Of a DNA stretch of 56,045 nt, positions 10,808-14,790 are shown piece after piece (position 1 is the stretch's first letter; every line of letters begins with the position of its first letter). Source of the DNA: a virus; IMG/VR virus record IMGVR_UViG_3300028666_000040, positions 1 to 56,045 of that record, one strand, 5' to 3'. The position numbers were made by a program, and so were the translations under genes. The notes under the pieces were generated by a model. It ran no database searches. It was given only the letters and a program-made list of their open reading frames with translations, and had not been told where the DNA came from.

Positions 10808-11680
10808 ATGGGCCTTTATCGAACGGCTTTGCGCCTGGCGACGCTGGAGGCGTTGCGCCCGAGCGCGCTGCTCAAACAAGGTGAAGGCGCGGAATGGCCG
10901 ACGCTCGCGCAGACGCGCGTGTTCGACTCGCGCATCGATCCGATCGAAGACCTGACCGCCGATCAGCATAAGGCGGCTATTGTCGTCTATACGCAGGAAG
11001 ATTTGGGCTATGGGAGCCAGCACCGTGGCGGCGCCCCGTTCCGTCGCGTTGTCGACCTGGTGTTTGAAATCTCGCAGATCGCCCGCGCCGACGACGATGT
11101 TAATAACCGCTACGTCGCCGGCGTGCCGCAAACCGACGCCGAACTTGAGGCCGAACTGGACCGCATCGAGTTCGAGATTGAGTTGGCGCTGCTGCATGGG
11201 CCTGGCGGCCATGTCTTTCGCCAACTGACGAGCGGCGGCTCCGTGACCGATCCGCGCTCCACGCCGCATCGAGATTCCGAGGAAGGCGCGCGGCTCGCCA
11301 TGCGCTCGTTGTGCTGGAAAGTTCAAGTAAGGGACAACGCGCCGGAATTACTGCCGCTCACCAATAAGGCCGGCATCGAGCGCCTGCCCGAGCCGCTGCG
11401 CTTCGTCGTTAAAAAGTTTCCCGAGTCCACTTATGTCGCCGCGCTCGGCTTGGGGCTTGGCGAGACCATGCCGATGCTGCCGATCGCGACCCCGCTGCGC
11501 ACTGTTACGACCGCCGGCGAAGTGATCGCGCATGGCGCCGCGCGGACCGGCGTCGCCAACGTCAATGGTTCGATTCCGCTTGCCGGTATGCCGGCGGCCG
11601 TCGTGTCCGACGCCGCCGGTTCGACCGAGTCGCACGCCGCCGTCGCGTCCGACTCCGATGCGCCGAACGAGACGGAATAA
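10808..11680 (+). CDS. Probable tail terminator / tail completion protein
   Basis: 290 residues. The segment AAIVVYTQEDLGYGSQHRG then RRVVDLVFEISQI is the pattern seen in tail-terminator proteins: a beta strand with 'YT/DxE', then an R-rich VDLVxEI strand. Helices ELEAELDRIEFEIELALL follow. The last ~90 residues are low-complexity (A, S, T, D) and probably flexible. Position after the connector and before the tail genes fits the ring that caps the tail tube. Confidence 0.6.
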   Translation: MGLYRTALRLATLEALRPSALLKQGEGAEWPTLAQTRVFDSRIDPIEDLTADQHKAAIVVYTQEDLGYGSQHRGGAPFRRVVDLVFEISQIARADDDVNNRYVAGVPQTDAELEAELDRIEFEIELALLHGPGGHVFRQLTSGGSVTDPRSTPHRDSEEGARLAMRSLCWKVQVRDNAPELLPLTNKAGIERLPEPLRFVVKKFPESTYVAALGLGLGETMPMLPIATPLRTVTTAGEVIAHGAARTGVANVNGSIPLAGMPAAVVSDAAGSTESHAAVASDSDAPNETE

Positions 11681-11694
11681 GCCGGAGACCAATC

Positions 11695-12102
11695 ATGCGT
11701 TTGCCCCACATTGCCGGAATCGTCGGCGCCGCGCTGTTTGGCGTGGCGCTGCTGGCTCTGACTGAACATCACGCGCCGGCCGTTCCGCCCGCGCCGCCGC
11801 CCGAACCCTCCGCCGCCACGGTGCCCGTCCCGGCGCCCGCGGTCATCGCGCCGCCGGCGCCGGACGTCACCGCGCCGGCGCCGGCGCCCGAGGAGCCCGC
11901 GCCGCAATCCTTCGATCCGGCGCCGGCGCCCGCGGTCGTGCCGTTGCCGGCGTCGCGTCCGCACGTGCATCACCGGCGCCGCGCCGTCCGCCATCATCAT
12001 GTTGTTGCTCGCCGTCGCCGCGTCTCGAAACATTCGCCGGCGTCGCCGTTGCACTGCGTGCTGCTGTCGTACCTGCGGCTTTTGTTTGGAGGCCGCCAAT
12101 GA
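11695..12102 (+). CDS. Membrane-anchored Pro/Ala-rich, His/Arg-ended protein
   Basis: 135 residues. An N-terminal hydrophobic helix (HIAGIVGAALFGVALLALT) can anchor it in the inner membrane. Residues ~28-90 are almost entirely Pro, Ala and Val, an extended periplasm-spanning type of linker. The end is rich in His and Arg (RPHVHHRRRAVRHHH). This TonB-like layout suggests a stalk with a charged tip, but no family is recognised. Its stop overlaps the start of the ParA-like gene (ATGA), so the two are probably made together. Confidence 0.6.
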   Translation: MRLPHIAGIVGAALFGVALLALTEHHAPAVPPAPPPEPSAATVPVPAPAVIAPPAPDVTAPAPAPEEPAPQSFDPAPAPAVVPLPASRPHVHHRRRAVRHHHVVARRRRVSKHSPASPLHCVLLSYLRLLFGGRQ

Positions 12103-12827
12103 CGCCGCCGACCGTCGTGCTGGTCGGCGCCGATAAGGGTGGCGTCGGCAAGACCATGACCGCGCGCGCGCTGCTCGACTATCTGGCGGCGCATCAGGTG
12201 CCGGTGCGCGTATTCGACAGCCAATCCGGCGGCGATCTCATCCGCTTTGCCCCGGAGGCCACGCTGATCGATCTTGCGTCGGTTGCGGATCAGATGAAGG
12301 TGTTCGACGGCGTGTCGGCGGAGACCGTCACCGTGGTCGATATCTGCGCCGGCCTTTTGTCGCCAACTCTCCGCGCGCTCGATGAGGCGCAATTGCTCGC
12401 CGATGTGCGCTCCGGCGCCATGCGGCTTGTGGTTCTGCATGTGCTTGGCGCCAGCATGGTATCGATCGGCGAGATCGCCACCGCATCGAAAAGCCTGGGG
12501 GGCGCCAAGCACCTGATTGTGAAAAATCACGCCAGCGCCACGGATTTTTCAGAATGGGATAAAGGCCCGGCGCAGGCGATCTTCGCAAAGTATAGCGACG
12601 TTACGATTACGATCGACCGTCTTGTCGATCCGGCGCCGAAGCTGCTCGAAATGCGCGCTATCGAGGAGCGCGGCGGCAGCTTTCTGTCTTTCATCAACGA
12701 TCCGGGCGAGTCTCGCATGATGCGCGGCCGCGTCAATTCCTGGCTGAGCCGGGTTTGGGCGGAGTTCGAGCGTGTCAATGTGCGCGGCCCCGACGTGCCA
12801 AGCGAGGGAGCAAGTGACCATGAATAA
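12099..12827 (+). CDS. ParA/MinD-superfamily P-loop ATPase in the tail operon
   Basis: 242 residues. The deviant Walker A KGGVGKT (13-19) with the signature lysine K13 marks a ParA/MinD/Soj-type ATPase; a switch-I-like VRVFDSQSGGDL and a switch-II-like TVVDICAGLLSP follow. There is no HTH, so it is unlike P1/F plasmid ParA and closer in size to MipZ, McdA or conjugative nucleotide-binding proteins. Such ATPases position cargo on nucleoid or membrane. Its location between a membrane protein and the sheath region, far from the ParB-like genes, argues against simple plasmid partition. Role unknown. Confidence 0.75.
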   Translation: MTPPTVVLVGADKGGVGKTMTARALLDYLAAHQVPVRVFDSQSGGDLIRFAPEATLIDLASVADQMKVFDGVSAETVTVVDICAGLLSPTLRALDEAQLLADVRSGAMRLVVLHVLGASMVSIGEIATASKSLGGAKHLIVKNHASATDFSEWDKGPAQAIFAKYSDVTITIDRLVDPAPKLLEMRAIEERGGSFLSFINDPGESRMMRGRVNSWLSRVWAEFERVNVRGPDVPSEGASDHE

Positions 12828-13125
12828 CGTATTTTTGAAGCCGCGGCAGGTCGACGGCCAGCCGGTTCTTGTCCGTGATCCGCAAAGCGGCAAGCCGCTC
12901 GATGCTGGCGGCGAATGGAAGCCGCTCACGCAATTCTGGTCGCGGCGCCTGGCGCAGGGCGACGTCGTCGACGGCACCGCCGAGCAAAACAAAAAGCAGG
13001 CGGCGGCGTCGGCCGCCGCTGCGCAGGCGCTCGAACCGCCGCCGCCACCCTCGCCCGCGGCGCCGGCCTCGTTCGAGCCTGGTCCGTCGCTTCGCACGGC
13101 GCCGGCGCCGGCGCCGAAAAAGTAG
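12820..13125 (+). CDS. Mu-type small tail-operon protein (DUF2635-like)
   Basis: 101 residues. The N-terminal half VFLKPRQVDGQPVLVRDPQSGKPL (in two overlapping parts) then GEWKPLTQFWSRRLAQGDV matches, from memory, the DUF2635 pattern found just before the sheath gene in Mu-like phages. The C-terminus is Ala/Pro-rich and probably disordered. ATG 12820 is preceded by GAGGGAG. It overlaps the end of the ParA-like gene by 8 bases, tying that ATPase into the tail operon. Confidence 0.75.
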   Translation: MNNVFLKPRQVDGQPVLVRDPQSGKPLDAGGEWKPLTQFWSRRLAQGDVVDGTAEQNKKQAAASAAAAQALEPPPPPSPAAPASFEPGPSLRTAPAPAPKK

Positions 13126-13212: not shown

Positions 13213-14790
13213 ATGTCGCTTTCCGCCGTTCCGTTTAACAACGTGCCGTCGAATATCCTCGTTCCGTTCTTTTGGGGCGAGTTCAATTCCGGCGGCTCGC
13301 CGTTCGAAAATATCCCGCGGCCGCTCCTGGTCGGCCAGAAGACCACCGCCGGCGCCGCGCCGGCCGGCGTGCCATATGGCCCGATCATGTCGCATGCCGA
13401 TGCGATCGTGCAGTTCGGCCCGACGTCGATGCTGGTCGGCATGTATGATGCCGCCTCGAAAGCGGCGCCGCTGCAGCCGTTTTGGGCGCTGCCGATCGCC
13501 GATCCCGCCGGCTCCGCCGCGGCCGGCAACATCGTCTTTACCGCGCCCGACGTGACCGGCGCCGCCGTGCTTTATGTGTGCGGCCGCAAGGTCGCGTTTC
13601 AGGTCAATGCGTCGGATACGGCCTCGATCGTCTGCAGCAATGCTGTCGCGGCGATCAACGCACTGTCGGCCACCGGCGCCCCATCGGGCTCTAACGTGCC
13701 GATCGTTGCCGCGGTCGACGGCACCAATCCGGCCAAATGCAATTTGACGTGCGCGCATATCGGCACGGTCGGCAACGGCATGGAGGTCATCGTCGCAACC
13801 GACCAGGCGAACGTCCTGACCGGCACCAACGCCGTCATAACGGCGCTTGTCGGGGGCACCGGCGTGCCCGATCTGTCGGCGCCGCTCGCCGCGCTCGGCG
13901 ATCAGACCTACGACTGGATTGGCGCGCCTTATGTCGACACCGCGTCGCTCAACAGCGTGCGGGATTTTTTGTCTGACCAGAGCGGTCGGTGGTCGCCGGC
14001 GCAGCAGCTTTATGGCCACTACACCACTGCCTATCTGGGCCAGACGTTGTCGACGCTGGTGACGTTCGGCAATGGCCGCAACGATCAGCACGTCACCATT
14101 TTCGGCGGCTTCGGCTCCGGCGCTTCGCCGACGCCGCCTTGGGAGGTCGCGGCCTCTCTGGTCGGCATCGAGGTGCTGCACCTGGCGAACCCGCCCGAAC
14201 TGTCGCGGCCGTTGCAGACCCTGCAACTGCCTGGCGTGTTGCCGCCGCGCGATCAGACGACGTGGTGGACAACGACGGAGCGCCAGGCGCTCTATTCGGA
14301 TGGCATCGCCGGCGGCAAGGTGAATGTTGATCAAACCGTGCAGATCGACCGCATGGTGACCACCTATCAAAAAACCGCGCCCGGCGTTCCCGACCAGACG
14401 TTTCTCGATATCGAAACCATGGCGCAGGGCATGTTCACCATGCGCTATCTGCGAACGGCGGTCACCGACGCATGGGGCCGCGCCGCGTTCGCCGACGAGA
14501 ATCCCGACAACCTGCCCAATCTCGCTACGCCGGCGGCGCTCGCCAACACGTTGCGCTTTGCTTATAACGATCTGGTCGCGCTCGGCGTCGCGCAGCATCC
14601 CGAACTGTTCTCAAAATATGTGGTCGTGCAGCGCAACCTGCTCGATCCCGACCGGGCCGATGCGTACATCCCGGAGAACATGGTCGGACAGTTGCGCGTG
14701 TTTGCCGCCAATGTGACGGCGTTCCGCAGCTACACGTCGCCCGGCGGCTCTCCGCTGGTGCCGAGCGCGCCGGGTTTCGGCGGCAACTAA
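13213..14790 (+). CDS. Contractile tail sheath protein (Mu gpL-like)
   Basis: 525 residues forming the outer, contracting layer of the tail. The N-terminal MSLSAVPFNNVPSN and LVPFFWGEF match the Mu-type sheath start, followed by PRPLLVGQK. The C-terminal domain has TMRYLRTAVTDAWGRAAF and the segment ending YTSPGGSPLVPSAPG. ATG 13213 is chosen over 13207 because GGAG at 13201-13204 is 8 bases away. The presence of a sheath establishes myovirus morphology. Confidence 0.92.
   Translation: MSLSAVPFNNVPSNILVPFFWGEFNSGGSPFENIPRPLLVGQKTTAGAAPAGVPYGPIMSHADAIVQFGPTSMLVGMYDAASKAAPLQPFWALPIADPAGSAAAGNIVFTAPDVTGAAVLYVCGRKVAFQVNASDTASIVCSNAVAAINALSATGAPSGSNVPIVAAVDGTNPAKCNLTCAHIGTVGNGMEVIVATDQANVLTGTNAVITALVGGTGVPDLSAPLAALGDQTYDWIGAPYVDTASLNSVRDFLSDQSGRWSPAQQLYGHYTTAYLGQTLSTLVTFGNGRNDQHVTIFGGFGSGASPTPPWEVAASLVGIEVLHLANPPELSRPLQTLQLPGVLPPRDQTTWWTTTERQALYSDGIAGGKVNVDQTVQIDRMVTTYQKTAPGVPDQTFLDIETMAQGMFTMRYLRTAVTDAWGRAAFADENPDNLPNLATPAALANTLRFAYNDLVALGVAQHPELFSKYVVVQRNLLDPDRADAYIPENMVGQLRVFAANVTAFRSYTSPGGSPLVPSAPGFGGN

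Follow-up and report, generated by a model that had tools for sequence, protein, structure and literature searches.

Why would a phage carry a small P-loop ATPase and a membrane-anchored stalk protein among its tail genes? This question is raised by a 56,045-bp virus contig (IMG/VR record IMGVR_UViG_3300028666_000040), the whole of which was analysed and is referred to here as the window. A sequence-only reading had taken the two genes, together with the DUF2635-like gene that follows them, for one block embedded in the tail operon and built around a ParA/MinD-type ATPase.

The tether and ATPase genes lie in the tail region of a predicted temperate myophage

Since the phage combines lambda-type head and packaging genes (a GpA terminase, a lambda portal and capsid E) with a contractile Mu-type tail (DUF2635, sheath and tube genes) and a tyrosine integrase, it is best classed as a temperate myophage and not as a Mu phage. 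The Mu-type label given earlier thus holds for the contractile tail but not for the phage overall. Both gene overlaps that had been noticed were confirmed: the ORFs of the stalk protein, which we call the tether, and of the ATPase share 4 nt, and the DUF2635 gene, starting at the ATG at 12820, overlaps the ATPase ORF by 8 nt. The DUF2635 assignment itself was borne out by Pfam (Table 1), and the sheath and tube genes come after this gene. When the sequence was read by eye, a purine-rich, RBS-like stretch was seen directly 5' of the tether, ATPase and DUF2635 starts, while a search for promoter-like sites within this block found none. Codon-position GC was coding-like for all genes of the block.

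Elsewhere in the window, a DNA methylase gene (N6_N4_Mtase, 67-1497) lies 5' of the terminase, and the N-terminal region of its product looks ParB-like by eye; genes like it are found near the ATPase in the loci L009-L011. A near-identical phage (L243, IMGVR_UViG_3300028800_000199), whose sheath is 100% identical to that of the window, is cut just 5' of the sheath gene.

Table 1. Genes of the window at and around the ATPase
Feature	Coordinates	Strand	Description
Upstream tail gene	10808..11680	+	phrog_12983; neighbour marking the insertion site
Tether/stalk gene	11695..12102	+	135 aa; TM, Pro/Ala stalk, His/Arg patch and HCVLLSYLRLLFGGRQ tip
Phage ATPase A, putative TraL-lineage SIMIBI ATPase	12099..12827	+	242 aa; DKGGVGKT P-loop; switch I FDSQ
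DUF2635 tail gene	12820..13125	+	Pfam PF10948, E 1e-13; neighbour outside the module
Tail sheath	13213..14790	+	Pfam PF04984, phrog_165; query for tail-block relatives

The ATPase gene is not a fixed part of the tail operon

With the sheath as the query, 71 IMG/VR relatives were fetched, and about 45 loci held the upstream tail gene, the DUF2635 gene and the sheath gene. For the upstream tail gene, a single-sequence search of phages and viral contigs found no kin, and alignments were needed. In these ~45 loci the three tail genes are consecutive, normally without an ATPase between them, and only L246, which is the L004 contig, shares the ATPase site of the window. The ATPase lies between the DUF2635 and sheath genes in L272, whose sheath is 79% identical to that of the window, 5-7 kb upstream in six further loci (L249, L252, L255, L262, L271 and L281; after terL where this was read), and between terL and the portal block in L259. 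Among 22 whole records with the same tail block, exactly one ATPase copy was present in 7 and none in 15, with several of the ATPase-less records measuring 44-58 kb, all of these being records that may be fragments. In other phages, ATPase copies adjoin terL, major head, portal, lysis or early genes.

The ATPase was rejected as a part of the tail operon because relatives with the same tail block carry it at three or four other sites or lack it. The proposed three-gene block with DUF2635 likewise did not hold up as a unit, since the ATPase occupies this site only in the window and L246. Judged from gene order, the cassette appears to be position-independent and dispensable. In L192, a prophage of genome G607, the ATPase has lysis genes as well as an integrase and an acyltransferase for neighbours, a position resembling that of lysogenic-conversion genes.

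A tether gene recurs with the ATPase in part of the family

The tether of the window has one predicted TM segment near its N-terminus (about residues 5-23; Kyte-Doolittle 2.07), Pro or Ala at 52 of its 135 residues, a His/Arg-rich patch at approximately residues 88-112 that contains RPHVHHRRR, and a C-terminal Cys/hydrophobic end (HCVLLSYLRLLF). The membrane-anchored Pro/Ala stalk that had been described upstream of the ATPase was thus found as stated. For its tip, the His/Arg stretch stood, and the Cys/hydrophobic motif at the C-terminus, which the sequence-only reading did not mention, has to be added. The tip may be periplasmic, the topology being ambiguous; if so, it would be beyond the reach of a cytosolic ATPase.

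BLAST and tblastn found no kin of the tether, a result explained by the blindness of BLAST to low-complexity sequence. We rejected the idea that the tether is an orphan, as a search by composition and architecture found like genes in three other phages. These genes lie directly 5' of the ATPase in L005 (4151-4456), L006 (5664-5996) and L026/L029/L259, and their products, of about 100-145 aa, have one TM, a Pro/Ala stalk, an Arg-rich patch (HRRRARR, RPKVRRAR and RPKVKRRSRP, respectively) and a Cys/hydrophobic end (RCFPLLC, SCFLIFC and CRIPIVSRVGTCVFF, respectively). In the same order, the spacing between tether and ATPase is a 4-nt overlap, a 4-nt gap and a 13-nt gap. When 4,958 small ORFs of coding-like composition from the phage loci were screened for the combination of a TM, a Pro-rich tail, 6 or more R/K/H within 10 residues and a Cys among the last 22 residues, only four distinct ORFs passed, each of them the gene directly 5' of an ATPase; the criteria were chosen after the four candidates had been seen, and position was not one of them.

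Since the pair occurs in four phages in four different genome neighbourhoods, the tether and the ATPase appear to constitute a mobile two-gene module whose members move together, in agreement with the earlier proposal that the ATPase has its own membrane partner. No tether was found beside the ATPase in its closest relative, L004, or in most phage copies. A small membrane-protein neighbour was rejected as a family-wide rule, as one was present at 7/91 copies versus 33/534 in the background (p = 0.64). Given the tetherless L004 and the lack of a general membrane-neighbour rule, the tether seems to be confined to part of the ATPase clade to which the window belongs.

The ATPase has a predicted SIMIBI fold and an altered switch I

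The protein encoded by the ATPase gene of the window, termed P0001, has a DKGGVGKT P-loop in which the deviant Walker A motif KGGVGKT spans K13-T19, exactly the residues given in the sequence-only reading. An alignment of 44 relatives showed G10, D12-T19, R23, D40, F50, D70, D81, H114, S122, E125, N143 and W215 to be invariant. Values of dN/dS between 0.03 and 0.35 show that purifying selection acts on the phage members of the family, which argues that the ORF is not a chance one. The only Pfam match was to a half-domain of CbiA, of the MinD/ParA superfamily (E 2.7e-6), and a PHROG ParA match was weak and covered 50 residues.

Structure prediction, which had been suggested as a check on the ATPase, yielded a SIMIBI fold. 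The AlphaFold2 model (pLDDT 91.1, pTM 0.89) was matched by Foldseek to Get3, ParA, ParF, MipZ, NifH and HypB at 12-18% identity. There were 126 PDB matches at E<=0.001, and among the matches listed, all were SIMIBI members and the MipZ dimer had the best TM-score (0.61); no close viral structure model was found in the structure search. The ATPase is thus predicted to have the SIMIBI P-loop fold. As the model is highly confident at the conserved C-terminal helix (206-225), this helix probably belongs to the fold and is less likely to be a free tail for membrane targeting.

In MinD and Soj, hydrolysis is driven by the second switch-I Asp. When this position was assigned through alignment to the IDTD of TraL, it was found to be Gln in the window, while the phage copies as a whole have 59 Glu, 27 Gln and 3 Asp (Glu or Gln in 86/89), and the chromosomal homologue in the host, ATPase A, has Glu in 80/80. 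This family-wide replacement by Glu or Gln suggests that hydrolysis is slow or partner-dependent, as would befit a switch rather than a motor.

Host chromosomes carry ATPase A next to a degenerate homologue

The phage branch of the family has at least 124 matches in IMG/VR, and at least 492 relatives of the ATPase were found on bacterial genome contigs. Family members of ~40% identity, annotated as hypothetical, are also present in two cultured Bradyrhizobium phages, namely WAX24364.1 in the lysis region of ppBeUSDA76-1 and ARQ95354.1 upstream of terL in BDU-MI-1, with no tether gene detected adjoining either. The literature searched held no account of the phage family, none of bll2492, and none of a ParA/MinD positioning system that a phage encodes with its tail genes.

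By profile search, chromosomal ATPase A was present in 89 of 120 genomes sampled from the Bradyrhizobium family, to which strain BTAi1 belongs, as against 13/199 genomes for the order and 22/398 for the phylum of this strain; ATPase A appears to be a core chromosomal gene of Bradyrhizobium-type bacteria. The proteins from Bradyrhizobium, Rhodopseudomonas and Afipia are 41-46% identical to P0001 and have the same invariant residues. In 74 of the 80 loci that were fetched, a second gene on the same strand, ATPase B, comes after ATPase A at a median distance of 61 nt, and LemA and M48 protease genes often lie 5' of the pair, whereas no ATPase B was found near the phage copies within the fetched flanks of up to 6 kb. 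The locus L126:10001-11484 of Bradyrhizobium sp. BTAi1, with a conserved A and a degenerate B, is like 70+ others. ATPase B bears no Pfam or NCBIfam name, is homologous to ATPase A from end to end (hhalign E 4.7e-22) and also has the SIMIBI fold. Since SPRPxxGKT replaces DKGGVGKT and switch I reads FDxN, usually with Asn at the second position, ATPase B is probably a weak or dead ATPase.

In a tree of 90 proteins, the chromosomal copies formed one clade (100/100) that also contained the phage copy L031, so host and phage appear to have exchanged the gene at least once; the tree was rooted on ATPase B over a very long branch, which leaves the root and the direction of the first transfer unsure. 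In the phage contigs L031-L034, the ATPase A is host-like and lies in a region of early type with a resolvase and a methyltransferase; this gene was apparently captured from a Bradyrhizobium-type host. Broken-looking copies of ATPase A were also seen: L195 (G160:C107) has an in-frame TAG and fragments beside pieces of B, in a genome that also has an intact copy, and the chromosomal copy at G257:C1:4523974-4524689 has a split frame.

The family falls on the TraL side of the SIMIBI superfamily

Scores with the family profile were highest for a chromosomal group, L186-L190 (89-103 bits), followed by plasmid proteins encoded near conjugation genes (56-75 bits), host ATPase B (40-72 bits) and TraL (16-32 bits), while the ParA, Soj, MinD and MipZ proteins of BTAi1 reached at most 21 bits. 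In the tree, a 96/94 branch placed TraL, L186-L190, the plasmid proteins, ATPase B and the ATPase A family together on one side and 10 ParA/MinD/MipZ-like proteins of BTAi1 on the other. The TraL model NF010461 matched neither P0001 nor host ATPase A; it was matched weakly by L188 and Pseudanabaena proteins. From this order of scores, the tree and the lack of a TraL-model match, the ATPase appears to belong to an unnamed family on the TraL side of the superfamily, yet not to be a TraL. The ParA/MinD-type assignment was consequently abandoned. Grouping with conjugative proteins, which the sequence-only reading had named as a result that would go against its proposal, is touched by this TraL-side placement.

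Like TraL of the IncP plasmids RP4 and R751 and like StbB, the ATPase is a small SIMIBI protein of ~240 aa with KGGVGK[ST]; it falls on the same side of the tree as TraL with respect to ParA, MinD and MipZ, and hhalign gave a probability of 94% over 134 columns. Unlike TraL/StbB (NF010461), the phage family has Glu or Gln for the second switch-I Asp and is at home in phages and host chromosomes, with no relaxase, TraK/StbA or TraM/StbC neighbour; a search beside the phage copies found no oriT or relaxosome genes, the neighbours being structural, packaging, lysis or early genes. The deviant Walker A and the SIMIBI fold are shared with ParA/Soj, MinD and MipZ, but the family forms a separate clade from these proteins, is missing the second switch-I Asp and has no ParB/MinE-type partner. 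One of 49 upstream genes was ParB-like, and none adjoins the ATPase in the window.

L186-L190, which come from the phylum sample, are a stand-alone chromosomal group with GGEKGGVGKS and FDTDRSH, and of the relatives outside the phage family they are the closest to it. In L080, a ParB-like gene adjoins the ATPase on its upstream side.

A proposed host-directed role and its alternatives

Given its many different sites in related phages and the close chromosomal cousin of the ATPase in the host, the cassette probably serves the phage as an accessory directed at the host cell and not as a part of the tail. The reading that we favour, with a probability of roughly 0.4, is that a late-expressed, membrane-tethered ATPase in a mobile cassette acts on the homologous A/B machinery of the host. 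Two points favour this target: the phage protein has a homologue encoded by a core host gene whose partner is conserved, and the site of the cassette in the phage genome seems not to matter. The cassette would be expressed with the late genes, the ATPase would dimerise on ATP, and the tether, or a membrane partner of the host where no tether is encoded, would hold it at the inner membrane. There it would engage the A/B machinery, for example by replacing ATPase A beside ATPase B or on its target, with the Glu/Gln switch I letting it work as a switch, and host envelope or polar physiology would be altered to the benefit of the phage.

The sequence-only reading had proposed the positioning of assembling virions or tails, or a block of host division; this would be just one of several options. 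The main rival, which we consider unlikely, is a positioning device: an ATPase tethered at the inner membrane or pole would draw procapsids, terminase or replicated phage DNA to a site of assembly, by analogy with StbB/TraL, which act ahead of conjugation by carrying plasmid DNA to the membrane at the pole. Both conjugation and the formation of plasmid foci at the polar membrane depend on StbB of R388 (PMC3098194). Positioning would accord with this precedent, with the TraL-side phylogeny and with the existence of a membrane tether in four phages, and the many copies that flank terL, portal or major head (capsid) genes in late operons fit a packaging role as well. It is harder to square with the absence of the ATPase from 15/22 records with the same tail block, several of them of 44-58 kb, and with sites that extend to lysis and early regions (L003, L031 and L192). 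Furthermore, no conserved DNA-binding partner gene adjoins the ATPase, whereas StbA and TraK adjoin StbB and TraL, and StbB of R388, a member of the described StbB/TraL group that was rejected as the closest kin, reaches only 3 bits against the family profile.

Third come effects on the envelope or lysis, which seem quite improbable to us. Here, the cassette would be an envelope modifier expressed in the lysogen or late, with a part in lysis timing, counter-defence or the exclusion of superinfecting phages. The ATPase would control a membrane protein, and the host homology would be incidental. Its moron-like distribution, dispensable and with one copy per phage, is what such a modifier would show, as are the copies in or beside lysis cassettes, the L192 copy beside an acyltransferase near the integrase, and glycosyltransferase-like neighbours elsewhere (phrog_4603 in 3 downstream neighbours). 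However, expression in the lysogen is not expected in the window, given the lack of an own promoter and the overlapping starts within a late operon, and PADLOC gave no anti-phage defence match. A P1-like ParABS partition system for a plasmid prophage, to which the deviant Walker A and the weak PHROG ParA match would point, was already disfavoured and is very improbable indeed, with no adjoining ParB in nearly all loci, an ATPase outside the ParA clade, and a late-operon position in a phage with a tyrosine integrase.

The reading in which the phage ATPase acts on host A/B machinery has a broader form, tentative and in our view doubtful: the tether-ATPase module of temperate phages of Bradyrhizobium-type bacteria may plug into a conserved, undescribed host membrane system of ATPase A and pseudo-ATPase B, the switch having been exchanged between host and phage. 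If this is true, a host switch would have passed between host and phage and would be used by the phage via its own membrane anchor. Three undescribed things would thereby be joined, namely a phage ATPase family with at least 124 IMG/VR records, a core host pair and a recurrent tether, the pair of two ATPases being core in a major family of soil and symbiont bacteria and having no named function. As a prophage copy exists alongside the chromosomal pair in BTAi1, much of this would be testable in one laboratory strain.
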